Source: Pseudomonadota bacterium (GTDB lineage: Bacteria > Pseudomonadota > Alphaproteobacteria > Acetobacterales > Acetobacteraceae). Taken from it: a DNA stretch of 64,000 bases. The notes beneath the pieces are model-generated. The model was not told where the DNA came from and searched no databases. It worked only from the letters and a program-made list of their open reading frames with translations. The stretch covers positions 1-64,000 of the forward strand of contig JAJZSY010000016.1 of NCBI GenBank assembly GCA_021849425.1, written 5' to 3'. Shown in pieces: positions 1 through 24,483 of this stretch. Position 1 is the first letter of the stretch. Every line of letters starts with the position of its first letter. A program made the position numbers and the translations under genes.

Positions 1-238
1 TGATATGCGCGGCCAGCCCCAGCCCGGTGCGCACCGCCTGCGCCACGCATTCGCGGTTGATCACCGGCAGCATCCCCGGAAACCCGGCATCGACGAAGCT
101 CACCTGGCTGTTCGGTTCGGCGCCGAACGCCGTCGCCGCCCCGCTGAACAGTTTCGAGCGCGAAATCACCTGGGCATGCACCTCAAGCCCGATCACCAGC
201 TCCCACGCGCCGGTCGTCCCCTCGATCACGTAGCTCAT
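1..238 (-). CDS. gatB: Asp/Glu-tRNA amidotransferase subunit B, N-terminal part
   Basis: This is the N-terminal 79 residues of GatB, the subunit of the GatCAB complex that binds the misacylated Glu-tRNA(Gln) or Asp-tRNA(Asn) and activates its side chain. The start of the protein reads [20 protein letters not shown] and continues [13 protein letters not shown], the typical GatB opening. The gene continues beyond the left edge of the window. Its ATG overlaps the TGA of gatA by four bases (ATGA), so the three subunits are translated as a coupled gatC-gatA-gatB operon. Confidence 0.95.
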
Positions 239-1716
239 GCCGCACCTCCCGCGATCACGCCCGGCCGGTGCGCAAACCCCGCCGCCCGCTCCAGCACCGA
301 TGACACGGCGAACACCGTCTCCTCGTCGAAATGCCGCCCCAGCACCTGCAAGCCGAGCGGCAGGCCCGCCGCATCCAGCCCCGCCGGCACGCTCATCCCC
401 GGCACGCCGGCGAGCGAGGCCGGCACGGTGAACACGTCGTTGAGATACATCGTCACCGGATCGTCCATCTTCTCGCCCAGCGCGAACGCCGCCGAGGGCG
501 CGGTCGGCGTCAGCAGCGCGTCCACCTTCCCGAACGCCTCCTGGAAATCCCGCAGGATCAGCGCCCGCACCTTCTGCGCCTTCAGGTAATACGCGTCGTA
601 ATACCCGGCCGAGAGCACATAGGTCCCGATCATGATCCGCCGCTTCACCTCCGCGCCGAAGCCCGCCGCCCGCGTCCGCTCGTAAAGATCGATCAGGTCC
701 TTGCCCTCGATGCGCGCGCCGAACCGCACCCCGTCATACCGCGCGAGGTTCGACGACGCCTCGGCCGGTGCGACGATGTAATACACCGGCAGCCCGTATT
801 TCGTGTGCGGCAGCGAAACGTCGACGATCTCCGCCCCCTCCCGCCGCAGCCAGTCGATCCCGTCCTGCCACAGTTTCTCGATCTCCCGCGGCATGCCCTC
901 CACGCGATACTCCGCCGGAATCCCGATCCGGAGCCCCTTCACCCCGCGCCCGCACGCCGCCCGGAAATCCGGCACCGCCCGCTCCGCCGAGGTCGAATCC
1001 TTCGGATCGAACCCGCTCATCTCGCGCAGCAGAATGGCGCAATCCTCCACCGTCCGCGCCATCGGCCCCGCCTGGTCCAGCGACGAGGCAAACGCGATGA
1101 TCCCGAACCGCGAGCACCGCCCATAGGTCGGCTTGATCCCGGCGATCCCGCTGAACGCCGCCGGCTGGCGGATCGACCCGCCGGTATCCGTCCCCGTCGC
1201 CCCCATCGCCATCCGCGCCGCCACCGCCGCCGCCGACCCGCCGGACGACCCACCCGGCGTCAGCTTCGCGCCATCCGCCCGCTGCCAGGGATTCTCCACC
1301 GGCCCGTAGCCCGACGTGATGTTGGACGACCCCATCGCGAACTCGTCGAGATTGGCCTTGCCCAGCATCACCGCCCCGGCCGCCTTCAGCCTGGCCGACA
1401 CCGTGCTCTCATACGGCGGCACGAACGGCTCCAGGATCTTCGATCCCGCCGTCGTCCGCACCCCCTCGGTGCAGAACAGATCCTTCATCGCGATCGGGAT
1501 ACCCGCCAGGGCAGGGGCCTCGCCCTTCGCCCGCGCATCATCCGCCGCCCGCGCCTGCTCCAGCGCCAGCTCCGGCGTCGTCGTGATGAACGCGTTCAGC
1601 CGCGGATTGAGCGCCTCCACCGCCGCCACATGCGCCTCGGTCAGTTCCACCGCCGAAACCGTCTTCGCCGCCAGCGCGTCCAGCGCCGCGGCGATCGTCA
1701 TGTCCAATACGCTCAT
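235..1716 (-). CDS. gatA: Asp/Glu-tRNA amidotransferase subunit A
   Basis: GatA is the amidase subunit of GatCAB: it hydrolyses glutamine and passes ammonia to GatB for transamidation of Glu-tRNA(Gln) or Asp-tRNA(Asn) in the cytoplasm. The 493 residues are a full-length amidase-signature protein. The Ser-cisSer-Lys triad is visible: Lys78 in AMKDLF, cis-Ser157 in PGGSSGGS and nucleophile Ser181 in [10 protein letters not shown]. Both ends overlap its neighbours by four bases (gatC upstream, gatB downstream). Presence of the complex implies indirect amidation for Gln and/or Asn tRNAs in this organism. Confidence 0.97.
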
Positions 1717-2000
1717 TCCACCACCTTCGGCACCGCAAAGAAATCGCCGATCCGCTCCGGCGCGTTCGCCAGCACGCGGTCGGGATACTGCCCGTCCGTC
1801 ACCGCGTCCTCGCGCATCCTGAGCGCCATCTGCGCCCCGCCCGAAAGCGGTGCTACGCCCTCCACATCCACTTCCGCCAATTGTTCCACATAGCCGAGAA
1901 TCGCGTTGAGTTCGCCGGCGAGCCGCGGCACCTCGTCCTCATCCAGCCGGATACGGGCGAGTTTCGCGATGCGGCGCACCGTCGCGTGATCGAGAGACAT
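1713..2000 (-). CDS. gatC: Asp/Glu-tRNA amidotransferase subunit C
   Basis: GatC is the small subunit that wraps around GatA and GatB and stabilises the complex. The 95-residue product starts [20 protein letters not shown], a standard GatC N-terminus, and ends FFAVPKVVE. The frame is open further upstream, but the ATG at 2000 matches the family length and has an AAGGGA-like ribosome site a few bases upstream. It is the first gene of gatCAB and is divergent from ruvX, separated by only 46 bases. Confidence 0.95.
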
Positions 2001-2046
2001 GACTGATCCCTTGGGTTTCTGAGCGCGCTGGACCATAAACGCGCGC

Positions 2047-2523
2047 ATGACACTGTTCAACCTGACCGACCTCGCCTCAACCCTGCCCCGCAACGCAAGG
2101 CTGATCGGCCTCGACCCCGGATCGAAGATCATCGGCATCGCCCTCTCCGATGTCGGCCGCCGCCTCGCCACCCCCTACGGCGCCATGAAGCGCGGCAAGC
2201 TCGCCGACGCCGCCGCCACCATTCTCGACATCGCCCGCAAGGAAGGGGCCGCCGCCATCGTCATCGGCCTGCCCCTCTCGATGGACGGCTCCTTCGGCCC
2301 CGCCGCCCAGGCCGCGCGCGACTGGGCGCACGCCATCGCCCGCGAAACCGGCCTCCCCGTCGCGATGATGGACGAACGCCTCTCCTCCGCCGCCGTCAAC
2401 CGCGCCCTCATCGAGGCCGACCTCTCCCGCGCCAAACGCGCCGGACGGGTCGACGCCGCCGCCGCCTCCTACATGCTCCAGGGCGCGCTCGACCTGCTGA
2501 ACGAACCCCGCCCCCCGGAATGA
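2047..2523 (+). CDS. ruvX: Putative pre-16S rRNA nuclease YqgF/RuvX
   Basis: The product belongs to the YqgF/RuvX family of RNase H-fold nucleases, which take part in 16S rRNA 5'-end maturation. Of the 158 residues, the motif GLDPGSK carries the conserved acidic residue Asp23, MDERLSS supplies the next acidic pair (109-110), and Asp136 lies in RVDAAAASYMLQ, the three-acidic-residue pattern of the family. Length is close to the usual 140-160. It is divergent from gatC across a short shared promoter region. Confidence 0.93.
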   Translation: MTLFNLTDLASTLPRNARLIGLDPGSKIIGIALSDVGRRLATPYGAMKRGKLADAAATILDIARKEGAAAIVIGLPLSMDGSFGPAAQAARDWAHAIARETGLPVAMMDERLSSAAVNRALIEADLSRAKRAGRVDAAAASYMLQGALDLLNEPRPPE

Positions 2524-2547
2524 TCGCCGAACAATGACCCCCACACC

Positions 2548-2877
2548 GTGAACCAGGCCGGCATCCTCGCCCTCCTCGCCGCCGCCGCCACCCTCGAGGT
2601 CGGCGGCGACGCCCTGATGCGCGCCGCCCTCCACCAGCACGGCCTCGCCCGCGCCCCCTTCCTCGCCGCCGGCATCCTCGTCCTCGCCGCCTACGGACTC
2701 GTGGTCAATCTCGGCCCGTGGGATTTCGGCCGCGTCCTCGGCGTCTACGTCGTCCTCTTCTTCCTCGCCGCCCAGCTGGTGAACTGGCTCGGCTTCGGCC
2801 TCCGCCCATCCCCGCCCATCCTCCTCGGCGGCGTCCTCATCTGCGCCGGCGGCCTGGTGATGACCCTCTGGCGATGA
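2548..2877 (+). CDS. Small four-helix membrane protein, YnfA (UPF0060)-like
   Basis: This is a 109-residue hydrophobic protein with a GTG start and four predicted membrane helices (about 5-25, 35-55, 60-80 and 88-107). It aligns by eye with YnfA/UPF0060 and more loosely with small multidrug resistance proteins: a glutamate sits in helix 1 (TLEVGGDAL), and FGRVLGVYVV matches the GRVYAAYGGVY segment of YnfA. Its physiological substrate is unknown. The stop overlaps the start of the next gene (ATGA), so the two are probably co-translated. The assignment rests on a visual alignment only. Confidence 0.7.
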   Translation: MNQAGILALLAAAATLEVGGDALMRAALHQHGLARAPFLAAGILVLAAYGLVVNLGPWDFGRVLGVYVVLFFLAAQLVNWLGFGLRPSPPILLGGVLICAGGLVMTLWR

Positions 2878-3680
2878 CCATCCACGCCCACATGTTCTGG
2901 CACGGCGACCCACCCCGCCGCCTCGAACGCCTCGCCATCCGCAGCGTCCTCGCCCAGGGCTACGCCCTCACCCTCTGGAGCTACGCCCCGCTCCCCAACC
3001 TCCCGCCCGGCCTCATTGCGGCCGACGCCGCCGAAATCCTCCCCCGCTCCGCCCTCTTCACCAACCGCCGCGGTTCCATCGCCAGCTTCACCGACTGGTT
3101 CCGCTACATCGTCCTCTCCCGCCACGGCGGCCTCTGGACCGATTCCGACGTCATCGCGCTGCGCCCCGCATCCGACCTCCCGGCGCGCAAATTCCTCGTC
3201 ACCCAGCGCGAATGGTTCCACCGCCGCCTCCGCCCCCGCGGCTGGAAAACCACCCTCAACAACAACGTCATCTTCAACCCCACCCCCGAACCGGGCGACC
3301 TCGTCGATCTCGCCCGCGCCCTCGCCGAACGCTTCCCCAAATCCGCGATCGACTGGGGCGAACTCGGCCCCGACCTGCTGACCGCGCTGTCGCGCCTCCA
3401 CCCCGCCCACGGCTACGCCATCATGCCGCCCGAATTCGCCAACCCGGTCGGCTACTGGCAAAGCCCCGCCGCCCTGCTGCGCCCCAACCCGCCCCGCCTG
3501 AGCACGCCAAACCTGAAACCCGAAACCGCCTTCCTCCACGCCTATGGCGAAATGTGGCGCCGCGCCGGCATCTCCCCCGACGCCCCGTTCCCCCCGGCAG
3601 CCTCCTCGCCACCCTCGCCAAAACTTTCGGCGAGCCCAACCCCTGACTCTGCCCCGCGCCCGTCATCAAAACATTACTGA
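2874..3680 (+). CDS. GT32-like glycosyltransferase with DXD motif
   Basis: The protein resembles the DXD sugar-binding glycosyltransferases (Gly_transf_sug, GT32-like) that transfer a sugar from a nucleotide donor. It starts MTIHAHMFWHGDPPRRLERL, and SRHGGLWTDSDVIALRP carries the DXD motif (DSD) that binds the metal-nucleotide. The predicted product is 268 residues. The last 30 or so residues turn into a proline/serine-rich stretch. Adding one C to the six-C run at 3590-3595 would instead give an ordinary ending, PGSLLATLAKTFGEPNP, with a stop at 3646. The C-terminus is therefore doubtful. The gene overlaps the YnfA-like gene by four bases. Confidence 0.8.
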   Translation: MTIHAHMFWHGDPPRRLERLAIRSVLAQGYALTLWSYAPLPNLPPGLIAADAAEILPRSALFTNRRGSIASFTDWFRYIVLSRHGGLWTDSDVIALRPASDLPARKFLVTQREWFHRRLRPRGWKTTLNNNVIFNPTPEPGDLVDLARALAERFPKSAIDWGELGPDLLTALSRLHPAHGYAIMPPEFANPVGYWQSPAALLRPNPPRLSTPNLKPETAFLHAYGEMWRRAGISPDAPFPPAASSPPSPKLSASPTPDSAPRPSSKHY

Positions 3681-3725
3681 ACGTTAGTCTTTCTCACCCT
3701 CCCGCCCTCATGGCACCTTCGCCCG

Positions 3726-4289
3726 ATGCCGCAGGAGAGCGAGACAATGCCCGACACCACCCCCCCGACCATCCCACCCGACGCGCCCACCCCCAACGCC
3801 ACCGCAACCGACGCCACCGCAACCGACATCCTCACCCTCGTGATCGAAACCTTCATCATCCCCTTCGAAGGTTTTTCCTCCACCCCCTACCGCGACGCCG
3901 CCGGCACCTGGACCATCGGCTACGGCTCCACCCGCGACGACACCAACGCCCCCGTCACCCAGACAACCCCGCCCATCACCCGCGCCACCGCCGAAGCCCT
4001 CGCCCGCCGCGACCTCGCCTCCGCCCGCCAGACCGTCACCCACGCCGTCACCGTCCCCCTGACCCCCAACCAGCAGGCCGCCCTCATCGACTTCGTCTAC
4101 AACCTCGGCGCCGGCAATTTCCTCCGCTCCACCCTGCTCCGCCTCCTGAACAACGGCGACTACAAAGCCGCCGCCGCCCAGTTCCCCCGCTGGGACCTCG
4201 CCAACGGATGTTTGCTCCCCGGCCTCCGGCGGCGACGCGAGGCGGAGGCGGCGCTTTTCTCCTCCGTTACGGCGGTGGGGGAGGGGTGA
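3726..4289 (+). CDS. Phage-type lysozyme, glycoside hydrolase family 24
   Basis: This is a T4-lysozyme-like muramidase that would cleave the MurNAc-GlcNAc bond of peptidoglycan. The catalytic triad spacing is exact: Glu48 in PFEGF, Asp57 in PYRDAAG and Thr63 in TWTIGYG (E-x8-D-x5-T). The core ends with LPGLRRRREAEAALF, as in phage endolysins of this family. The first 35 or so residues are Pro/Thr/Ala-rich without a clear signal peptide; Met8 is an alternative start. No holin, spanin or structural phage gene lies beside it, so it may be a prophage remnant or a domesticated enzyme. It sits right at the left border of the low-GC island. Confidence 0.9.
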   Translation: MPQESETMPDTTPPTIPPDAPTPNATATDATATDILTLVIETFIIPFEGFSSTPYRDAAGTWTIGYGSTRDDTNAPVTQTTPPITRATAEALARRDLASARQTVTHAVTVPLTPNQQAALIDFVYNLGAGNFLRSTLLRLLNNGDYKAAAAQFPRWDLANGCLLPGLRRRREAEAALFSSVTAVGEG

Positions 4290-4697
4290 GGTGTTGCGGT
4301 CAGGGAGCGTTGCGAATGTGTGACTTGGGCCGGGAGCGGAATGGCGGCTTTCAGCCGGCCAAAGGGGAAAGCAGACATAGAAGCGAACACCGCCGGATAC
4401 CATCTTTCGACCCTACGCAGTCACTGAATCGGCCGGCTGACGATCCCGGAAGCGGACATTCGCGGCCAAGCCAATCTGAGGGCATGCCGTCCTGAGAAAA
4501 TTGAAAACATCGACCACCTCCCGGTCAGAGATCCTCGCTCCGTCCAAACTGGATCGTCACCCCAGGTGCGTCTCTGTAATAGAGGGACGCCGCCACGCCT
4601 ACTGCTAATGAGCGGACACCGTCATCGCCGCCAGCCCGAGAACCCCTGCTTGCAAACCAGCTCTGCAGCGAGATATCCTAAAATCGACGGAGGGCAC
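4290..4697. other. Left flank of the accessory island, no convincing gene
   Basis: These 408 bases lie between the lysozyme and the island operon. An open frame runs in from 4566, but its residues before 4698 look like random translation and lack a ribosome site. Composition shifts here from very GC-rich to mixed. The stretch AGCAGACATAG and, further on, AGCGGACATTC look like related short elements, but no long repeat, tRNA or integrase fragment is visible. The promoter of the two-gene operon must lie here; no clear -35/-10 pair was identified. Confidence 0.5.
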
Positions 4698-5438
4698 ATG
4701 TTAGGCGAGTTCATTTGCGGCAGAGGCGGCGCCATTGGGGTTGCAGATGCTACATTGGATCATCTGAAGAGTTCCATCGAGCGATTCGCTGCCAGGTCGC
4801 TTTTATTTCTCAACGGCGACTTTGGCGAAGATCCGCAGAGTTTTGGTGCCTTCTGTGCCCGAGTTGTTTTAGAGAACTCCTGCGCTGCTTTGGTGGGACG
4901 CCTCGACCCTTTTCGTCTTCTATATCTCGCGCAGTTCCAGGCGCAGCAAGGCTTCGAATATGGACGTCCCAGTAACTCAGGTTTTCGGTGGACTGGCGAT
5001 GTTCTACCGGACGAAAAAGTGCCTCAAGAGATGTGGGGCGTTGACCACAACGTCTCCAAGGTGAGCCGAGCACTGTTTTCGCCATATGCGGACCACGTAT
5101 ATTGGCGCCCAGCCGTCGAGACGGCGCTTGATTTCATAGCCAACGACAGTTCCGACCTGCTGCAAGACCTTCGTTCACTCCAGCCGGACCAATACGTTGG
5201 CCATACGCGCGGGAGATGTGCTGCATTGTACTCCACTCTGTCCAAGGGAGTTCATTGGGACTTTTTTACCTCATCCATCGTTTTAGATGAAGGGACAATT
5301 AAAGACTCTATTAGGGAGACGTTCGTTGCGCTCGGCGGCATGGCGCTAATTTCGCACTTTGTTCCGACCGCGTACCGCGCGCTGGAGCGAGACGCGGCCG
5401 TGGACACTTACAAGAGGCTTCGGGGACTGTTCGTATGA
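4698..5438 (+). CDS. Unrecognised 246-residue protein, first gene of island operon
   Basis: I do not recognise this protein. The ATG at 4698 is preceded by a strong GGAGGG ribosome site at 4689-4694, which decides the start over the open frame upstream. The 246 residues look soluble and mainly helical, without signal peptide or membrane segment. Features worth matching are SLLFLNGDFGED (about 34-45), a tryptophan-rich middle, and LYSTLSKGVHWDFF followed by a hydrophobic helix (GGMALISHFVPTAYRALE). The LSKGVH segment recalls helical domains found in some defence proteins, but that is a weak impression. Codon use includes TTA, ATA and AGA, unlike neighbouring genes. The stop overlaps the start of the ATPase gene by four bases, implying a functional pair. 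Confidence 0.75.
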   Translation: MLGEFICGRGGAIGVADATLDHLKSSIERFAARSLLFLNGDFGEDPQSFGAFCARVVLENSCAALVGRLDPFRLLYLAQFQAQQGFEYGRPSNSGFRWTGDVLPDEKVPQEMWGVDHNVSKVSRALFSPYADHVYWRPAVETALDFIANDSSDLLQDLRSLQPDQYVGHTRGRCAALYSTLSKGVHWDFFTSSIVLDEGTIKDSIRETFVALGGMALISHFVPTAYRALERDAAVDTYKRLRGLFV

Positions 5439-6940
5439 TGATTGAAGTTCCGGACGATTCTGACGGCGGACTTATATTGGCTGCTGAAGAGTGCCCAGCA
5501 GACAAGTTTGAGCAACTGCATGCGTTCTCGACCTATGACGATGTGATTATTCGTAAACTCTCGGCCCACGGCCCTGTCTTGATCAGAGGTGGACGAGGCA
5601 GTGGTAAGAGTGCTCTACTCATCGAAGCGCATCGCCGCATGAGATCAGCAGGTTCCATATTTTCCGTTTACATGAGCCTGCGCTATCTTCCATTACTGCA
5701 GTCAGACGGGGCCGAATACATCGAGCATTTTTGCGGCCTTTTGTCTAAAGAAATTAGTCGAGAGCTGGAGAAACAAGGTATCGCCGCCGAATTCTCGCTC
5801 GCAGACGACGAGGTTGCGCTTCAAATCGCACTTGTTAAGCTGTCTCAAGGACTCGATAAAAGAATCGTTTTGCTCTTTGATGATGCCGCCCATATCGGGC
5901 GCGAAAAGCCGCTTGAAGTCTTCTTCGATCTATTTCGAACACTCTCCAGCAGTGTCACTTCGTGCAAAGCTTCTATTTATCCTGGTGTAACAAAATTTGG
6001 TGTTCGGTTCGATGTATTTAATGATTCCACAGTTCTAGACATTAGCCGTTCGTCGGTTTCTAGTGCTCGTTCCTACTTTCTGGAAGTCCTAAAGATCCGG
6101 TATCCAAAGCTGGCCAGCAGAGCGGTGTTTTCCGACCGACTTGTACCGGAACAATTCGCCAATCTCCTGGGCCGAGCCGTCGTGGGAAACATGAGGGCGT
6201 TTATTTTGGCATGCAATCGCTTTGATGAGCACGAGCGGATCAGCATCCCCGATGTGAATACATGCTTCCTAGACATGGCCACGGACTATTATTGGCCGCT
6301 CATGGAGGAGGTCGCTCCGAAGCTGGGTGTTTATGAGCCCTTAGTCGAACCGGCTAACCGCATGTTCGAAGCTATTATTGAGCATGTGTGTCGACCGTTG
6401 AAGTCTGGATCACGAACCATCGCTCAAGACCGGGTAACGGTTCACGGAAGAATCGTCAGCAGCTACTCTAAAATGTTTGAGATCTTGGAGTATCTGGGCT
6501 TTGTTTCAAAAATTCAGGCGTCTCGGGGAATGAAGTCGGGAGGCAGAGGGCCGGTTTATTCAATCAACCTCTGCAGCCTCTTGGAGCAAATTCCCACAAA
6601 GAGGCTTACGATTGAGATGATCGAGGAGTGGGTAGAAGCGAAGCCCGATTTGGCGGAGATTCACTCGGAGAGCAACACGTTTGGAGGTATATCAGTCCCG
6701 TTATTACCAGAGGAGAACAGTCTCGGGATCCTTGAAAAACCGGTGGACGTGCTTGCGAAATCGAAAGTCTATCCATATGGATTGACGGCAGACAAGATCT
6801 CACGCCTTAAAGCGGCAGGAGTCTGCACTGTGCAAGAGTTGGCTAACACATCCGATGCAGATCTTCTCAAAATTGATATGGTTGGAGAGGTTGCTGTTAA
6901 GCGCATGAAGGCCGTGACTCTTCAAGCTATTTGGATGTGA
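5435..6940 (+). CDS. P-loop ATPase with winged-helix and helix-hairpin-helix regions
   Basis: This 501-residue protein has a Walker A motif GGRGSGKS (residues 52-59) and a Walker B strand RIVLLFDDAAH (Asp149, Asp150), so it should bind and hydrolyse ATP. The layout resembles ORC/CDC6-like or STAND-like AAA ATPases. A segment at about 335-385 (MFEILEYLGFVSKI, then a glycine-rich hairpin and VYSINLCSLLE) looks like a winged helix. The last 55 residues (GLTADKISRLKAAGVCTVQE and on) look like a helix-hairpin-helix DNA-binding domain. Two ATG codons are adjacent (5435, 5438). The preceding gene overlaps by four bases. Composition is near half GC, well below the flanks, suggesting transfer. A DNA-sensing or defence role is inference only. 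Confidence 0.8.
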   Translation: MMIEVPDDSDGGLILAAEECPADKFEQLHAFSTYDDVIIRKLSAHGPVLIRGGRGSGKSALLIEAHRRMRSAGSIFSVYMSLRYLPLLQSDGAEYIEHFCGLLSKEISRELEKQGIAAEFSLADDEVALQIALVKLSQGLDKRIVLLFDDAAHIGREKPLEVFFDLFRTLSSSVTSCKASIYPGVTKFGVRFDVFNDSTVLDISRSSVSSARSYFLEVLKIRYPKLASRAVFSDRLVPEQFANLLGRAVVGNMRAFILACNRFDEHERISIPDVNTCFLDMATDYYWPLMEEVAPKLGVYEPLVEPANRMFEAIIEHVCRPLKSGSRTIAQDRVTVHGRIVSSYSKMFEILEYLGFVSKIQASRGMKSGGRGPVYSINLCSLLEQIPTKRLTIEMIEEWVEAKPDLAEIHSESNTFGGISVPLLPEENSLGILEKPVDVLAKSKVYPYGLTADKISRLKAAGVCTVQELANTSDADLLKIDMVGEVAVKRMKAVTLQAIWM

Positions 6941-7264
6941 CAAAACTTTTTCTGCGTGGAGCAAACCCTACTCAAGGCCGAATGCCGCTAGTCGGTTGGT
7001 ACGAACCGAAACCGGACTGTCGCCAATCCCCCCATGTCGGCAGGAGCGGATCGGTAGCCCAATGTCTGCTTCAGGAGCACTGCTCACCAGTCACCAATGG
7101 CCGTGATGGGCGCATTGCGGACCCGAGTCGTACGAACCGGCTCGCGTTACGCCATTGCCGCCCAGTCCGCCCGAATTTTGTCCGATAGCCAGCCACGCAA
7201 CCATAGGGGCAAAACTAACAAATATCCTTGCCCACCCCCACCCCCTCATGGGATTTTTGCACCC
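6941..7264. other. Right flank of the accessory island, no convincing gene
   Basis: This 324-base gap separates the ATPase from the KPRAP-repeat protein. A short frame beginning at 6931 continues into it for 85 codons, but its product is Arg/Pro/Cys-rich with no family resemblance and no ribosome site, so I do not call it. Base composition climbs back to high GC towards 7250. No tRNA, terminal inverted repeat, or exact copy of the left-flank sequence was found, so the island boundaries cannot be fixed by attachment sites. Confidence 0.5.
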
Positions 7265-7873
7265 GTGACCACCCCAACCACCACATCCCCCGGACTTTTG
7301 CTCCGCCCCCGCTTCGAAACCTTCATCGAGGCGCTCTGCGCGCACATCGCCGCCGCGGGGCTGAAACACGGCGTCGCCGGGCCGGTCATCGTCCTCATCT
7401 GGCAGCGCCTCCGCCGCCTCGCCGCCCGCTTCGCCCGCCTCGCCGCCATCCCGGCCCGGCGGCGTAAAACCGCCCGCGCGGGCAGCGCCGGCCCGCGCTC
7501 GCCGCTCCCGCGCCGCTTCGCCTGGCTCACCCGCCTCATCCCCGGAACCGCCTCGGTCGCCGCCCAGTTCCGCGCCATGCTCGAAACCCCGGAACTCGCC
7601 GCCCTCGTCGCCGCCACCCCGCAAGCCGGGCGCATCCTCCGCCCGCTCTGCCACACGCTCGGCATCCGCCCGCCCACATGCCTCCGCCGGCCCCGCGCCA
7701 AACCCCGCGCGCCCAAACCCCGCGCGCCCAAACCCCGCGCGCCCAAACCCCGCGCGCCACAGCCCAAACCGCCCGAACCCCCCGCGCCGGCACATCCCGC
7801 GCCCAACCCGCTCTGGTCCCGCGCCCCCGGCGCAGCCCGCTTCAACCCCCCACGCCGGAAATTTCGCGCCTGA
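7265..7873 (+). CDS. Hypothetical basic Pro/Ala/Arg-rich protein with KPRAP repeats
   Basis: I do not recognise a family. From the GTG at 7265 (MTTPTTTSPGLLLRPRFETF) the product is 202 residues. Residues about 15-45 could form one amphipathic or membrane helix (LKHGVAGPVIVLIWQRLRRL), followed by a strongly basic region. Residues 150-170 are a run of four KPRAP-type pentapeptides, then a Pro-rich tail. The basic, disordered C-terminus would suit nucleic acid or cell-wall contact, which is speculation. The start is uncertain because no good ribosome site is visible and the frame stays open upstream to 7097. Confidence 0.5.
   Translation: MTTPTTTSPGLLLRPRFETFIEALCAHIAAAGLKHGVAGPVIVLIWQRLRRLAARFARLAAIPARRRKTARAGSAGPRSPLPRRFAWLTRLIPGTASVAAQFRAMLETPELAALVAATPQAGRILRPLCHTLGIRPPTCLRRPRAKPRAPKPRAPKPRAPKPRAPQPKPPEPPAPAHPAPNPLWSRAPGAARFNPPRRKFRA
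7700..7758 (+). repeat. 15-bp tandem repeat coding for KPRAP
   Basis: The unit AAACCCCGCGCGCCC occurs four times head to tail (7700-7714, 7715-7729, 7730-7744, 7745-7758, the last unit diverging at its end). It encodes Lys-Pro-Arg-Ala-Pro in the hypothetical protein above. The identity of the first three copies at DNA level suggests recent expansion by slippage, so copy number may vary between strains. Confidence 0.9.
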
Positions 7874-7918
7874 CGCCGCCGCGCCCCATCACGCCCGATT
7901 TGTTGCGAATCCCAACAA

Positions 7919-9667
7919 TCAGCCGGCCCGGCCGAACATCCGCTCAAGATCGCCCTGCGTCAGCCGCAAAACCGTCGGCCGCCCATGCGGGCAGGTCTGC
8001 GCGAGGGGAGTGGTCTCCATCGCCCGCAACAGCGCCTCCATCTCCGCGAAAACCAGCCGCCGCCCCGCCCGCACCGAACGATGACACGCCATGCGGATCA
8101 AAACCGCGTCCAGCCGCACCTCCAGCGCCGCCGCCGTCCCGCTCTCCGCCAGCGTGTCCGCCACATCCCGCGCCAACCCCGCCGGATCGGCCTTCGACAG
8201 CGCCGCCGGAACCGTCCGCACCAGCACCGCCCCCGGCCCGAACGCCTCGATCTCCAGCCCCAGAGCCGCCAGCGTCTCCGCCGCCCCCACCAGCCGCGAA
8301 ACGTCCTCCGCCGCCAGCTCCACCACCGCCGGCGCCAGCAGCGCCTGCGCCGCAATCCCCCCCGACTCCCGCTCCGCCCGCAGCCTTATCTCCGTCAGCC
8401 GCTCATGCGCCGCATGCTGGTCCACCAGAACCAGCGTCCCATCCCCGCTCTGCGCCAGAATATACGTCTCGAACACCTGCGCGATCGGCGTCCCCAGCGG
8501 ATACTCCGGCCGCACCTCCGGCAAAACCTCCGGCACAACCCGCGCCGGCGGCAAATCCAGCCCGCGCAGCTCCGCCTCCGCGAACCCCCGCGCCGCCCGG
8601 CTCTCCGCTTGCGGATATCGCGGCATCGCCGCCGCCGCCGCCCAGCTCGTCCGCGGCAGCGAAACCGAAGGCGCCGCCCCCAGCTCCGCCGGCGTCGCCA
8701 GCCCCCGCTGCACCGCCCCGATCACCAGCGACCGCACCGCATCCGGGTTCGCGAACCGCAGCTCCGCCTTCGCCGGATGCACGTTCACATCCAGCATCTC
8801 CGCCGGAATCTCCAGCCATAAAGCCGCCAGCGGATGCCGCCCCGCCGGAATCCGCTCCCGATACGCCAGCCGCAGCGCCATCCGCAAAAGCGGGTCCCGC
8901 ACCGGCCGCCCGTTCACCACCATGTGCTGGTGCCGCCCCGCCGCCCGCGTCAGACTCGCCGGCGAAATGAACCCCCGCAGCACAACCTCCTCCCGAGCCG
9001 CCTCGATCTCCAGCAGCCGCTCCGCATCCCCCCGCCCATAAATCGCCGCCACCCGCTCCCGCCGGTCCTGCGCCGGCAGCTCGAACCGCGCCACCCCGTC
9101 GATCGTCAGCGAAAACCCAACCCCCGGCGCCGCCAGCGCCAGGTGCCGCACCGCCTCCGCGCAAGCCCCCGCCTCCGCCGCCGCCCCACGCAGAAATTTC
9201 CGCCGCGCCGGCGTCGCATGGAACAGATCCTCGACGATCACGCAGGTCCCCACCTGTCCGGCCACCGGCTCGACCTCCCGAACCGCCCCGCCATCCACCA
9301 CGATCCTCGCCGCCGAATCCTGCCCCGCCGGCCGTGACGTCAGGGTCAGCCGCCCCGCCGCCCCGATCGACGGCAACGCCTCGCCCCGAAATCCCAGCGT
9401 GGCAATCCGCACCAGCGCCTCGTCCGTCAGTTTCGATGTCGCATGCCGCTCGATCGCCAGCTTCAGTTCCGCCTCGGCAATCCCATGCCCGTCATCGGTC
9501 ACCTCGATCCGCCCGATCCCCCCGCCCTCGATCGCAACCCCGATCCGCCGCGCCCCGGCGTCGAGCGCGTTCTCCACCAGCTCCTTCACCGCGGCGGCCG
9601 GCCGTTCGATCACCTCGCCGGCGGCAATCCGGTTGATCGTTATCGGGTCTAGGCGACGGATCGGCAT
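7919..9667 (-). CDS. mutL: DNA mismatch repair protein MutL
   Basis: MutL couples mismatch recognition by MutS to strand incision. The 582-residue product starts MPIRRLDPITINRIAAGEVI and carries the GHKL ATPase motifs: ENALDAGA, DDGHGI, TLGFRGEALPSIG and ATPARRKF. The C-terminal dimerisation/endonuclease region contains the metal-binding signature VDQHAAHERL, then ACHRSVRAG and CPHGRPTVLRL, indicating an endonuclease-type MutL as expected in an alphaproteobacterium without MutH. Length is normal. It stands alone, convergent with the KPRAP gene and divergent from the esterase gene at 9724. Confidence 0.96.
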   Translation of the reverse strand: MPIRRLDPITINRIAAGEVIERPAAAVKELVENALDAGARRIGVAIEGGGIGRIEVTDDGHGIAEAELKLAIERHATSKLTDEALVRIATLGFRGEALPSIGAAGRLTLTSRPAGQDSAARIVVDGGAVREVEPVAGQVGTCVIVEDLFHATPARRKFLRGAAAEAGACAEAVRHLALAAPGVGFSLTIDGVARFELPAQDRRERVAAIYGRGDAERLLEIEAAREEVVLRGFISPASLTRAAGRHQHMVVNGRPVRDPLLRMALRLAYRERIPAGRHPLAALWLEIPAEMLDVNVHPAKAELRFANPDAVRSLVIGAVQRGLATPAELGAAPSVSLPRTSWAAAAAMPRYPQAESRAARGFAEAELRGLDLPPARVVPEVLPEVRPEYPLGTPIAQVFETYILAQSGDGTLVLVDQHAAHERLTEIRLRAERESGGIAAQALLAPAVVELAAEDVSRLVGAAETLAALGLEIEAFGPGAVLVRTVPAALSKADPAGLARDVADTLAESGTAAALEVRLDAVLIRMACHRSVRAGRRLVFAEMEALLRAMETTPLAQTCPHGRPTVLRLTQGDLERMFGRAG

Positions 9668-21972: not shown

Positions 21973-22036
21973 ATGATTGATTTTTCTAGTATCCACTTTC
22001 AATCTGAAATCCATCGGATTTCGGATTCAGGACACT

Positions 22037-22074
22037 AAAGCACTTTCTGATCCAGCCGGATCGGATGATGCTCT
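22037..22074. repeat. Imperfect palindromic intergenic repeat, copy 1
   Basis: Downstream of rnhB lies an imperfect palindrome: the left arm AGCACTTTCTGATC pairs with the right arm GATCGGATGATGCTCT across CAGCCG. The 19 bases ccggatcggatgatgctct (22056-22074) recur exactly at 41806-41824 after rodA. Both copies lie just after a gene end, as expected for dispersed REP-like elements that may also act as transcript ends. Confidence 0.7.
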
Positions 22075-22160
22075 AAGTCACATGATCCAGCCGGCGGGGC
22101 TGGGCCTGGCGCGGCCCTGATCCGCGCCGGGCGAGACGGAATCCGTCAGGACTTCGCCGG

Positions 22161-22454
22161 TCAGGCGTAGCGGCGTTCGGGGTGGCGCAAATGCCACAGA
22201 CGCTCATGAGCGGCGACGAGGCTCTCGATGCTTTTCCTGCGGTTGGCGTCCGGGTGGACGGAACGGCGGGTCAGCAGGCGTTCGAGAATGCCCAGGAGAT
22301 CTTCCGCGATTTCGTAATCGTCCTGGTCGCAGGCATGGTGGAATGCGATCAGGATCTTGTCCGAGAGGCGGCGGCTGTAGCGGGTTGTCGACCGCTCGGC
22401 CTTGCCGGTGTCTTCGACGGCGGGGGTCTGGTGGTCGTTGTCGGTCAGGGACAT
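22161..22454 (-). CDS. Small conserved-looking hypothetical protein
   Basis: A 97-residue acidic/basic, mainly helical soluble protein (RYSRRLSDKILIAFHHACDQ, then DDYEIAEDLLGILERLL). I cannot assign a domain family; similar short helical proteins occur in alphaproteobacteria, and no function is known to me. The helical repeat-like segment EIAEDLLGILERLLTRR suggests protein-protein contact. It lies downstream of the Hint-domain gene on the same strand, separated by an AT-rich 181-base gap that probably carries its promoter. Confidence 0.65.
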   Translation of the reverse strand: MSLTDNDHQTPAVEDTGKAERSTTRYSRRLSDKILIAFHHACDQDDYEIAEDLLGILERLLTRRSVHPDANRRKSIESLVAAHERLWHLRHPERRYA

Positions 22455-22635
22455 GCTCGAATTCCTGTTATTTCTGAGACCATATTACCAAATAGTAATC
22501 GAAATACCATACTTTTTAATGAACGAATTTCATTCGAATTAAAATTTCATATTTCGCTCTCCTGAGCAAATTTATTCTTGAGATGAACTAGATCATATTT
22601 TAGACAATTTTAACATCAAAAACGTTTCCATATTG

Positions 22636-24483
22636 TTAAAAGCGGCACAGATTGTGGGCGGCTGTGTGTAATTGCTCGGATGAGTCTACGCGGCGCCAAA
22701 GCTGTGGGAAAGCCGCAAGCCGGATAAAAAGGCGAGTCGCACCGGGTGGAAGGCAAAGTTCGCCATGGCCTGACGACCAGATCGTCTGATCGCCTGCGGC
22801 CTTGGGGTGAAAGCCGCTTGCCGCGCTGGCGGCGATGTCGAGACCGAGGGTCTCGGTTCTCAATTCCGCGAGCGCGACGCCGAGTTCCCGCCGGTCTTCG
22901 GAGGCGGGATCGATCCAGGCGGGCACGAAGCGGGGCGAGTGCAGGAAGGCCCTGCCGCCATGGCCGTGCGGCAGCGCGATCCATTTGTCGGGCGTGATCG
23001 GCATGACTGTGCCGCCGGCCCAGAGGGCCGCATCGTGATGTGTCTCGACCGCAAAGCCGAGCGCGAGGGCGCGGGCATGCAGGGTTTCGCGGATTGCGCG
23101 CAGGCGGGCGCCGCCGGTGCAGAGCGGCGCGCAGGCGTCGTGATCCCAGCTCAGATCGCGCACGGCACAGGTTTCGGCGCTGGCAAAGCCCGCCCGGTTG
23201 CCGGTGTCGAGATAGCTTTCGCAGGGCGCGCCTTCGGCCAGCAACAGATCGTGCCGGGCGAGTTCGACGTGGTGATAGGAGATTGCGAGGCAGGCCTCGT
23301 CCCGGCGGATGGTGGCTCCGTTGACGAGAAGCCGCGCCGGCACCAGCACGCCGTCCAGCAGCAGGGCGTGGTCGGGTGACAGGCGCAGGCGGCGCGCCGG
23401 CAGCCCGGGCGCGAGCGACCCGGCGGCGAGGCTGATGGGCTGCACCTGCTCGGGCGCGGGATGCGCCGTCAGATCGAGCACGCGCGATCCGGTCCAGATG
23501 ACGGGAACGGTCTGGCCTGCGGCGGTAACCACCCGGTCGCCGGCCATGAGGGTTTCAACCGGGCGCGGGCCGTTCGGCGTGAGGATCATCGTGCCGCGCG
23601 CATAGCAGTTCGGGTTCGGGCCGGCGGTGTGCGTGGCGATGGAGGCGGTGAGGCTGAGCCCGCCCGGGCCGGTGGTGGCGAAGAGCGGCGCGGCATTGGC
23701 GCTGGTGAAGCTGCCATCGACATGGCCCCGCGCGTCGAGCAGGCTGACGGTGGCGCCGCTTTGGCGGATCGAGCCGCCGACCAGCGATGGCAGCAGGATG
23801 GCGTCGCCGCCGGACAGGCCGCCGATGGTCACGTTGGCACCGAGACAGGGGTCGGCGAGGGTGAGGGTTGCGCTGCCCGGGCCGAACTGGAAGGTCTGGC
23901 TGGCGACCGCATCCGCGAGGCGCACCGAACTGCCATCGTCGAGCGCGATCGTGCCGCCGCCTGACAGCGCGCCGCCATCGATGATGAGCGTGCCGCCGGC
24001 GAGGCTGACGGCGCCTTCATTGTCGAACGCCGTGCCGCCGACCGACAGCGTGGCGCCGGCGCCGACCGCGATGGTTCCGGTATTGTCGAATTGCGGTGCG
24101 GCCGCGCCGGGCAGGCCGGTAAGCGCGCCGATATCGACCACCACATCGGCCGACGCGCCGCCTTCGAGCGTGATCGTCCCCGCGGTCATGATCTGGTCGG
24201 ATGCAAAGAGTGCGGCCGTGCCGGCGATGTCGAGCCGCGAGTCGGTGCCGAGGGCGACGGCGCCGCCATTGCCGGTGAGGCCGGCGGCGCTTTGCCGGCC
24301 GTCGAGCCGGAGCGCGCCCGCGATCGTCACACCCGGATCGACCAGAGCCACGCTGCCATCGATCTCCGCCGCGCCGGCCGGGCCGGGGACGGCGCCGTTA
24401 CTCCAGTTCCATGCGGCACTCCAGTCGGCGACGGCGCCGGCAGGGGGCTGGAAAATATCTGTCGTCAAATCGCCCGTCATCAA
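22636..24483 (-). CDS. Hint-domain (Hint_2) beta-strand-repeat protein, 615 residues
   Basis: The N-terminal 280 residues are Gly/Ala-rich with repeated beta-strand motifs (VALGTDSRLDIAGTAALFAS; GAGATLSVGG), as in surface-exposed or secreted proteins. A Hint_2 (hedgehog/intein-type) domain follows: it opens at Cys293 (CYARGTMILTPNGPRPVETL), then HALLLDGVLVPARLLVNGA and YHHVELARHDLLLAEGAPCE. The remaining C-terminal part is globular. No classical signal peptide is visible. The domain order and several motifs are shared with the 1499-residue protein at 45993, so the two are paralogues. Role unknown; autoprocessing at the cysteine is possible but unproven. Confidence 0.85.
   Translation of the reverse strand: MMTGDLTTDIFQPPAGAVADWSAAWNWSNGAVPGPAGAAEIDGSVALVDPGVTIAGALRLDGRQSAAGLTGNGGAVALGTDSRLDIAGTAALFASDQIMTAGTITLEGGASADVVVDIGALTGLPGAAAPQFDNTGTIAVGAGATLSVGGTAFDNEGAVSLAGGTLIIDGGALSGGGTIALDDGSSVRLADAVASQTFQFGPGSATLTLADPCLGANVTIGGLSGGDAILLPSLVGGSIRQSGATVSLLDARGHVDGSFTSANAAPLFATTGPGGLSLTASIATHTAGPNPNCYARGTMILTPNGPRPVETLMAGDRVVTAAGQTVPVIWTGSRVLDLTAHPAPEQVQPISLAAGSLAPGLPARRLRLSPDHALLLDGVLVPARLLVNGATIRRDEACLAISYHHVELARHDLLLAEGAPCESYLDTGNRAGFASAETCAVRDLSWDHDACAPLCTGGARLRAIRETLHARALALGFAVETHHDAALWAGGTVMPITPDKWIALPHGHGGRAFLHSPRFVPAWIDPASEDRRELGVALAELRTETLGLDIAASAASGFHPKAAGDQTIWSSGHGELCLPPGATRLFIRLAAFPQLWRRVDSSEQLHTAAHNLCRF

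Follow-up and report, generated by a model that had tools for sequence, protein, structure and literature searches.

A horizontally moved gene pair encoding an ORC/CDC6-like ATPase and a possibly HEPN-like partner as a candidate anti-phage module

What is the function of two overlapping, low-GC genes found in a GC-rich stretch of an Acetobacteraceae genome, and do they belong to the chromosome around them? The stretch analyzed here, called the window throughout, comprises the first 64,000 nucleotides of contig JAJZSY010000016.1 (assembly GCA_021849425.1), and the two genes encode a small protein, P0001, and an ATPase, P0002. We propose, giving it about an even chance, that the pair is a single mobile conflict module, probably directed against phages, whose ATPase would control a HEPN-like effector. 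The pair has the following features.

4698-5438, plus strand: open reading frame (ORF) of P0001, 246 amino acids (aa)
5435-6940, plus strand: ORF of P0002, 501 aa, ATPase
5435-5438, plus strand: overlap of P0001 and P0002, ATGA, 4 bases
P0002 residues 52-59: Walker A motif, GGRGSGKS
P0002 residues 149-150: Walker B motif, DD

The composition of the pair differs from that of its surroundings. Over its 2243 bases (4698-6940) the GC content is 0.51, with respect to a mean of 0.694 (standard deviation 0.042) for segments of 2243 bases across the 64 kb, where the lowest segment apart from the pair reaches 0.644. GC content at third codon positions is 0.58 in P0001 and 0.53 in P0002, compared to 0.82-0.92 in eight nearby genes (names assigned by eye), and the codons TTA, ATA, AGA, AGG and CTA make up 5.3% and 4.0% of the two genes, compared to 0-1.0% in the same eight. 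A recount thus bore out the first-pass annotation, made from the letters alone, in its two ORFs, their ATGA overlap, the low GC content and the use of TTA/ATA/AGA-type codons. A GGAGGG stretch can be read just 5' of the P0001 start codon (ATG at 4698). A search for sigma-70-like promoters between 4300 and 7200 found none, with 1.5 expected, a tRNA and Rfam search of the whole window gave no match, and the terminal repeats sought around the pair amounted to nothing beyond short, low-identity repeats.

The same arrangement is present in other proteobacteria. Scanning a species-genome collection with P0002 yielded 26 pattern matches, eight of which encode a relative (in Aminobacter, Pollutimonas, Azospirillum, Bradyrhizobium, Caballeronia, Tardiphaga, a Rhodocyclaceae and a Lamprocystis), and four further loci came from sampled genomes, one through a profile of the partner (G299) and three through a profile of the ATPase (G785, G837 and G1082). 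Counting once the genomes that were met twice (L020/L007, L024/L009 and L025/L010), the window and 12 other proteobacterial loci form a group of 13 with the same gene order, here named clade A. Three weak ATPase matches were dropped: G837 contig 69, which at its start resembles a TIR protein and has a NACHT-like part (by eye), G797, located in a 680-aa frame like that of G837 contig 69, and G635, whose start resembles a short-chain dehydrogenase (by eye).

In all 13 loci, the gene directly upstream of the ATPase gene encodes a P0001 homologue. The ATPase of L012 reads as interrupted; this locus is counted as a pair through its intact partner and is excluded from the Walker motif count, the ATPase tree and the identity correlation. 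The overlap of the two genes measures 4 bases at 11 of the 13 loci and 7 bases in L036, and a 2-base gap separates them in L037, these values depending on the start codons chosen in this analysis. Pairwise identities average 0.60 in the ATPase and 0.46 in the partner. Comparing the identity matrices of the two proteins gave a correlation of 0.97 over 66 pairs (12 of 13 loci, owing to the interrupted L012 ATPase), a value that none of 2000 permutations attained. Removing L019, L036 and L037 left a correlation of 0.75, again with none of 2000 permutations as high. Separately, a 70-aa ORF in G649 (L043:5614-5826) corresponds only to the C-terminus of a clade A ATPase, ending QAIWM; it is apparently what remains of a lost copy and does not enter the count of pairs.

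The pair is also rare. The partner profile matched two of 299 genomes of the order, including its own, and none of seven genus-mates (G096, G153, G297 and G346 among them). With the ATPase profile, five of 385 genomes of the class matched, two of them with a full-length clade A protein, and eight of 398 in the phylum, six of them clade A, the own genome being included in both cases; in the class of G1082 the single match among 185 genomes was G1082 itself. The P0002 query alone matched three of 200 genomes of the family: its own, one with a clade B relative and one with a clade C relative (see below). The GC content of the pair was more than 0.1 below both flanks in five of the 11 loci compared (L005, L007, L008, L011 and L019), 0.27 and 0.07 below them in L036, 0.13 below the sole available flank in L035, and 0.03-0.07 below the flanks in L009 and L010, while neighbor genes, read by eye, vary among clade A loci. 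Together, these observations support the view that the pair is a horizontally moved two-gene unit outside a housekeeping position, as had been suggested for the window; the conserved housekeeping placement that would have spoken against the suggested defense or DNA-sensing module was not seen, given the rarity of the pair and its variable neighbors.

We then considered what the ATPase is. Among 12 clade A ATPases, 11 have GGRGSGKS as Walker A and the one in L037 has GARGCGKS; Walker B is DD in all 12, in agreement with the intact motifs of the first-pass annotation, so that P0002 qualifies as a P-loop NTPase. Its Pfam matches were weak, to AAA_16 (E-value 8e-6) and to the ORC-CDC6-like family PF24389 (E-value 0.05), for which it scored 12.7 of the 27 bits of the gathering cut-off. 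Its P-loop region (residues 32-135) showed weak NCBIfam similarity to DS-41 (NF053860, E-value 6.6e-4) and to the Sll1717-family ATPases (NF047389, E-value 1.3e-3), far below the curated cut-offs at 18.8 of 370 and 17.9 of 75 bits, respectively. A PADLOC search of the pair reached no cut-off and, for P0002, gave no match up to an E-value of 1. Four distant relatives of P0002 pass the PF24389 cut-off, with 37.8-62.9 bits. A maximum-likelihood tree of 31 ATPases resolved three clades with 100% bootstrap each: A, the window type (12 rows), B (6 rows) and C, with a zinc ribbon (13 of 18 members). By profile comparison P0002 is homologous to the ATPases of clade B (E-value 2e-29, 470 columns) and of clade C (E-value 7e-31, 461 columns), and in both cases the homology spans nearly the full length, helix-hairpin-helix included. 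Judged by this full-length homology to relatives that pass PF24389, P0002 is an ORC/CDC6-like P-loop ATPase.

The C-terminus of P0002, at about residues 448-495, gave weak and consistent matches to the RNA polymerase alpha C-terminal domain and to Dmc1/Rad51 N-domains (best E-values 0.0019 and 0.0026), making the helix-hairpin-helix proposed earlier likely. A winged helix had been proposed as well. No family of that kind matches P0002; in a clade C relative, residues 312-389 in the middle of the L102 ATPase match a phage transcriptional-regulator family (E-value 8.6e-6).

The two related clades carry small partners of their own. In clade B, a HEPN-type partner is found directly upstream of the ATPase in all six loci (L013, L015, L038, L039, L064 and L065), with R86-x3-E90 and Y155-R156-x2-S159-x3-H163, that is, RX6H, invariant in all six. 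In clade C the partner is directly downstream in 17 of 18 loci, namely five of five on plasmids or genomes and 12 of 13 on viral contigs, some of the viral contigs being near-copies; no partner was found in L097. Here E70-x3-R74 and R156-H157-x3-H161 (RHx3H) are invariant in all 13 aligned rows (five plasmid or genome partners and eight of the 12 from viral contigs). The accessible part of PMC3710099 gives Rx4-6H, often with Ex3[KR], as the features of HEPN, and by their sequences the partners of both clades fit these features, the Rx4-6H motif included. Family searches gave matches below cut-off, with the clade C partner L014 against Pfam HEPN_RiboL-PSP (E-value 0.0012) and a clade B partner against DUF6988 (E-value 0.16); PDB profile searches with both partner groups found nothing up to an E-value of 10, and the profile comparison of clade B with clade C partners showed nothing.

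Several relatives of the pair in these clades have defense-type surroundings. On a Planktothrix plasmid (L013), the clade B pair lies directly behind matches to SspB (E-value 6e-118), SspC (E-value 0) and SspD (E-value 7e-115), and downstream of it is a helicase with RadD- and PbeA-like matches. The cluster as a whole (L013:797-14614) holds SspB, SspC, SspD, the clade B pair and the RadD/PbeA-like helicase, and further an MzaB-like ATPase, a Cas4/RecB-like protein and a PLD protein; it is perhaps a composite phosphorothioation-linked system. No SspB, SspC or SspD was seen beside the window pair, where neighbors were read by eye. Clade B also occurs in two viral contigs, in one of which it adjoins ORFs that look by eye like a cytosine methyltransferase and a Vsr-type nuclease. 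In clade C, an annotated methyltransferase is upstream in three of five plasmid or genome loci, and a 397-420 aa ORF is upstream in nine of 13 viral contigs, the one tested matching DNA methyltransferases, so that 12 of 18 clade C loci overall have a methyltransferase or a comparable ORF upstream. One clade C block (L102:4800-8764), consisting of a methyltransferase, an ORC-CDC6 family ATPase and a HEPN-type protein, is present in 148 of 5426 complete Escherichia coli genomes.

Is P0001 itself related to HEPN? Its alignment shows two invariant blocks in all 13 clade A members, R55-x3-E59 and Y178-S179-x2-S182-K183-G184-x-H186. R-x3-E and Y-x3-S-x3-H (R55-x3-E59 and Y178-x3-S182-x3-H186 in P0001) are common to P0001 and the clade B partners, whose operon slot P0001 occupies, beside a homologous ATPase. 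The best profile alignment between P0001 and the clade B partners falls on the Y-x3-S-x3-H motif in all three comparisons, with an E-value of 0.038 for nine A and three B rows and, for 13 A and four B rows, a score of 31.2, where the best of 30 shuffles reached 19.2. The chance of three invariants coinciding at one offset is about 0.06 (311 of 5000). An early match to clade C partners (26.1, best shuffle 21.3) was off-motif and dropped to 19.6 with 13 C rows. Matches of P0001 to the Pfam families AOC_like (E-value 0.038) and phosphatase-like (E-value 0.11) appeared in one of 13 members each, and those to the PDB entries RsbR and salicylaldehyde dehydrogenase had E-values of 0.23-0.5; all were treated as chance. 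The HEPN link of P0001 is suggestive and somewhat favored, not proven.

From these elements, a mechanism can be proposed. P0002, with its ORC/CDC6-like core and helix-hairpin-helix end, would bind DNA, sensing foreign or replicating DNA and assembling on it. Depending on its nucleotide state, it would then, through contact between the two proteins, switch on or release P0001. P0001, if it adopts a HEPN fold, would target RNA and arrest the infected cell, in this way protecting against phage. The accessible text of PMC10853773 reports that ORC/CDC6-type ATPases of related systems are predicted to form rings and scan DNA, and according to accessible parts of PMC12839542 and PMC10853773, BREX-related and phosphorothioation systems of different build contain ORC/Cdc6 ATPases and HEPN domains. 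A more specific version, which we consider possible at a clearly lower level of confidence, would make clade A a distinct anti-phage system, whose HEPN-descended effector has swapped the catalytic arginine for a strictly conserved S-x2-S-K-G-x-H site and, by altered chemistry, would cut or modify its target when triggered by the DNA-bound ORC/CDC6-like ATPase; clades A, B and C would then be one ATPase/HEPN superfamily, acting by itself, together with DNA methylation or together with DNA phosphorothioation.

Several results weigh against the proposal. In all 13 clade A partners the position of the HEPN arginine, after Y178, is a serine, and a Pfam search of the 13 gave no HEPN family match. 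With 13 A and six B rows, the P0001-clade B score was borderline, at 26.8 with a best of 26.4 in 60 shuffles, and the score of 19.6 against 13 clade C rows lies below the 95% shuffle level of 21.4. The GC content of the pair is about equal to that of its flanks in L006 and L037, most clade A neighborhoods look ordinarily chromosomal by eye, and clade A was not found in the phage records or viral contigs searched.

The missing arginine deserves attention. P0001 lacks Rx4-6H despite its invariant H186, and because this defining feature was tested for and is absent, P0001 is not filed as a HEPN member. Given the serine in all 13 members, K183 (invariant, three residues before H186), R55 or R124 may substitute for the arginine; in its accessible part, PMC3710099 describes a HEPN family without the arginine in which other conserved basic residues are a possible replacement. 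Alternatively, P0001 may be a nuclease-dead regulator.

The context of clade A itself contains defense and mobility genes in part. A Pfam scan covered 20 proteins: 16 are neighbors of the pair at six of the 13 loci, and the other four belong to the G297 site described below. An Abi_C gene lies 115 bases from the pair in L037, and a ResIII-PLD helicase, matching type IV restriction in PADLOC (1.5e-96), 48 bases from it in L012. The neighbors in L010 include a resolvase and SocA/Panacea, a transposase is a neighbor in L006, a phage Rha/KilAC gene lies about 6 kb away in L007, and the scan of L009 gave a GGDEF protein only. The surroundings of the other clade A loci, read by eye, seem for the most part ordinary. 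A constant association with defense islands, put forward as a check on the pair, thus fails for clade A, several copies being among genes that look by eye like ordinary chromosomal ones. As to the suggestion of an undescribed defense module, Pfam, NCBIfam and PADLOC do not name the window pair, none of their curated cut-offs being reached, and homology of the ATPase to ATPases of defense clusters argues for it; the part of that suggestion built on the lysozyme gene next to the pair did not survive (see below). No paper on the pair was found in the open-access literature searched, supplements excluded.

Other explanations must be considered. The pair could be a toxin-antitoxin or addiction system, in which P0001 is a toxin restrained by the ATPase and is retained since its loss is costly, without dedicated phage sensing. 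We regard this as unlikely: the small gene overlapping an ATPase gene and the sporadic, mobile distribution would suit it, and PMC3710099, in its accessible part, reads a dyad of a HEPN gene and a ParA/Soj-like ATPase as toxin-antitoxin, but P0002, which is double the size of P0001, has a DNA-binding-type end and has relatives in modification or restriction clusters, goes beyond what an antitoxin needs. Comparably improbable to us is that P0001 has another helical or mixed fold and serves as an adaptor or substrate-recognition subunit of the ATPase. The lack of HEPN family matches and of the arginine in all 13 members, PDB matches at chance level and the borderline profile score all agree with such a fold, against which stand the clade B operon slot with its homologous ATPase, the alignment on Y-x3-S-x3-H and the common R-x3-E.

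A role as helper genes of a mobile element, in target choice or replication of a transposon or plasmid, with P0002 acting like transposon ATPases, would account for the transposases near some copies (L006 and the G297 site) and the resolvase near L010; we consider it quite improbable, as by eye no transposase or integrase is common to clade A loci, and the repeats around the window pair are only the short, low-identity ones mentioned above. Housekeeping DNA-repair genes, to which mutL near the window pair and, in L005, a MutS-like ORF at a distance of about 2.7 kb might point (names by eye), are very improbable because the distribution of the pair, in two of 299 genomes of the order with varying neighbors, contradicts them.

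Compared with known systems, the proposed ATPase-gated module resembles the clade C block in having a homologous ATPase and an adjoining small HEPN-type partner. In clade C, however, the partner is downstream and keeps the arginine, a zinc ribbon is present in the ATPase, and there is usually a methyltransferase upstream. In E. coli, RefSeq names the clade C proteins HsdM family methyltransferase, ORC-CDC6 family AAA ATPase or zinc ribbon protein, and hypothetical protein, the last being the annotation of the HEPN-type gene in the rows listed. The clade B pair is alike in its homologous ATPase and in a small partner directly upstream with R-x3-E and Y-x3-S-x3-H, whereas it keeps the arginine (RX6H in all six) and occurs beside phosphorothioation genes and in the two viral contigs. 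According to the accessible part of PMC3710099, the ATPase domain of RloC keeps its own HEPN nuclease inactive, a restraint of a HEPN-type effector like that proposed for the window pair; RloC is an ABC-ATPase-HEPN fusion, while the window holds two genes, with an ORC/CDC6-like ATPase and no arginine. The HEPN and ParA/Soj-like dyad of the same source has a similar two-gene HEPN/ATPase layout with a ParA/Soj ATPase and a MAE_18760-type HEPN, and is set apart here by description only. The DUF499-centered BREX-related systems, as presented in the accessible part of PMC12839542, also join an ORC/Cdc6-type ATPase to HEPN in defense, but with a large fused ATPase, a methyltransferase and a helicase, unlike the window pair. 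DS-41, noted above for its weak similarity to P0002, and a DUF6988 system were validated in the DefensePredictor paper, according to its accessible part (PMC13092281).

If the proposal is true, one family of DNA-bound ATPases would control the same type of RNA-targeting effector alone, with DNA methylation and with DNA phosphorothioation, providing a clean system in which to study the licensing of an RNA-side effector by a DNA-side sensor. The E. coli version of clade C would make direct testing possible in laboratory strains, and the arginine-less clade A partner would gauge how far a HEPN active site can change.

Finally, we examined the place that the pair occupies in the window, whose features are the following.

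3726-4289, plus strand: lysozyme-family gene (phage-lysozyme family, E-value 7e-42), resident left neighbor, outside the module
4351-7205, no strand: variable segment holding the pair, with no counterpart at this site in G297 (L066)
7206-7934, no strand: right border, where a repeat family with numerous partial copies in the genus begins, outside the module

G297 (L066) matches window positions 1-4337 at 93.8%; it also has a second copy of the lysozyme 3' end, corresponding to 4086-4350, and, farther along, matches to 7206-7453 and 7242-7934. In G346 a topA-like gene (named by eye) immediately follows the lysozyme, in G096 and G153 ORFs lie between the lysozyme and the topA-like gene, and G1115 has other ORFs after the lysozyme. 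These five genus-mates keep the gat-region and the lysozyme together without the pair at that place, the genome-wide search for the pair having covered the first four, with G1115 examined at the site only. The lysozyme is therefore a resident gene, and the first-pass annotation's use of it as a sign of phage-related exchange is rejected. The 3' side of the lysozyme is a variable site, which in the window is filled by the pair.

The G297 version of the site (L066:3063-8778) contains other ORFs, three of them without a Pfam match, together with a DDE transposase and partial copies of both the lysozyme end and the right border. The repeat family at 7206-7934 has matches in 10 of 13 genomes of the genus (19 in the own genome, 27 in G297, 30 in G153 and 75 in G346), many of them short and GC-rich, with three copies or part-copies in the G297 version of the site. 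Elsewhere in the window, a second, smaller dip in GC content (0.57) at 22000-23000 corresponds to the end of a 615-aa ORF and an intergenic gap.

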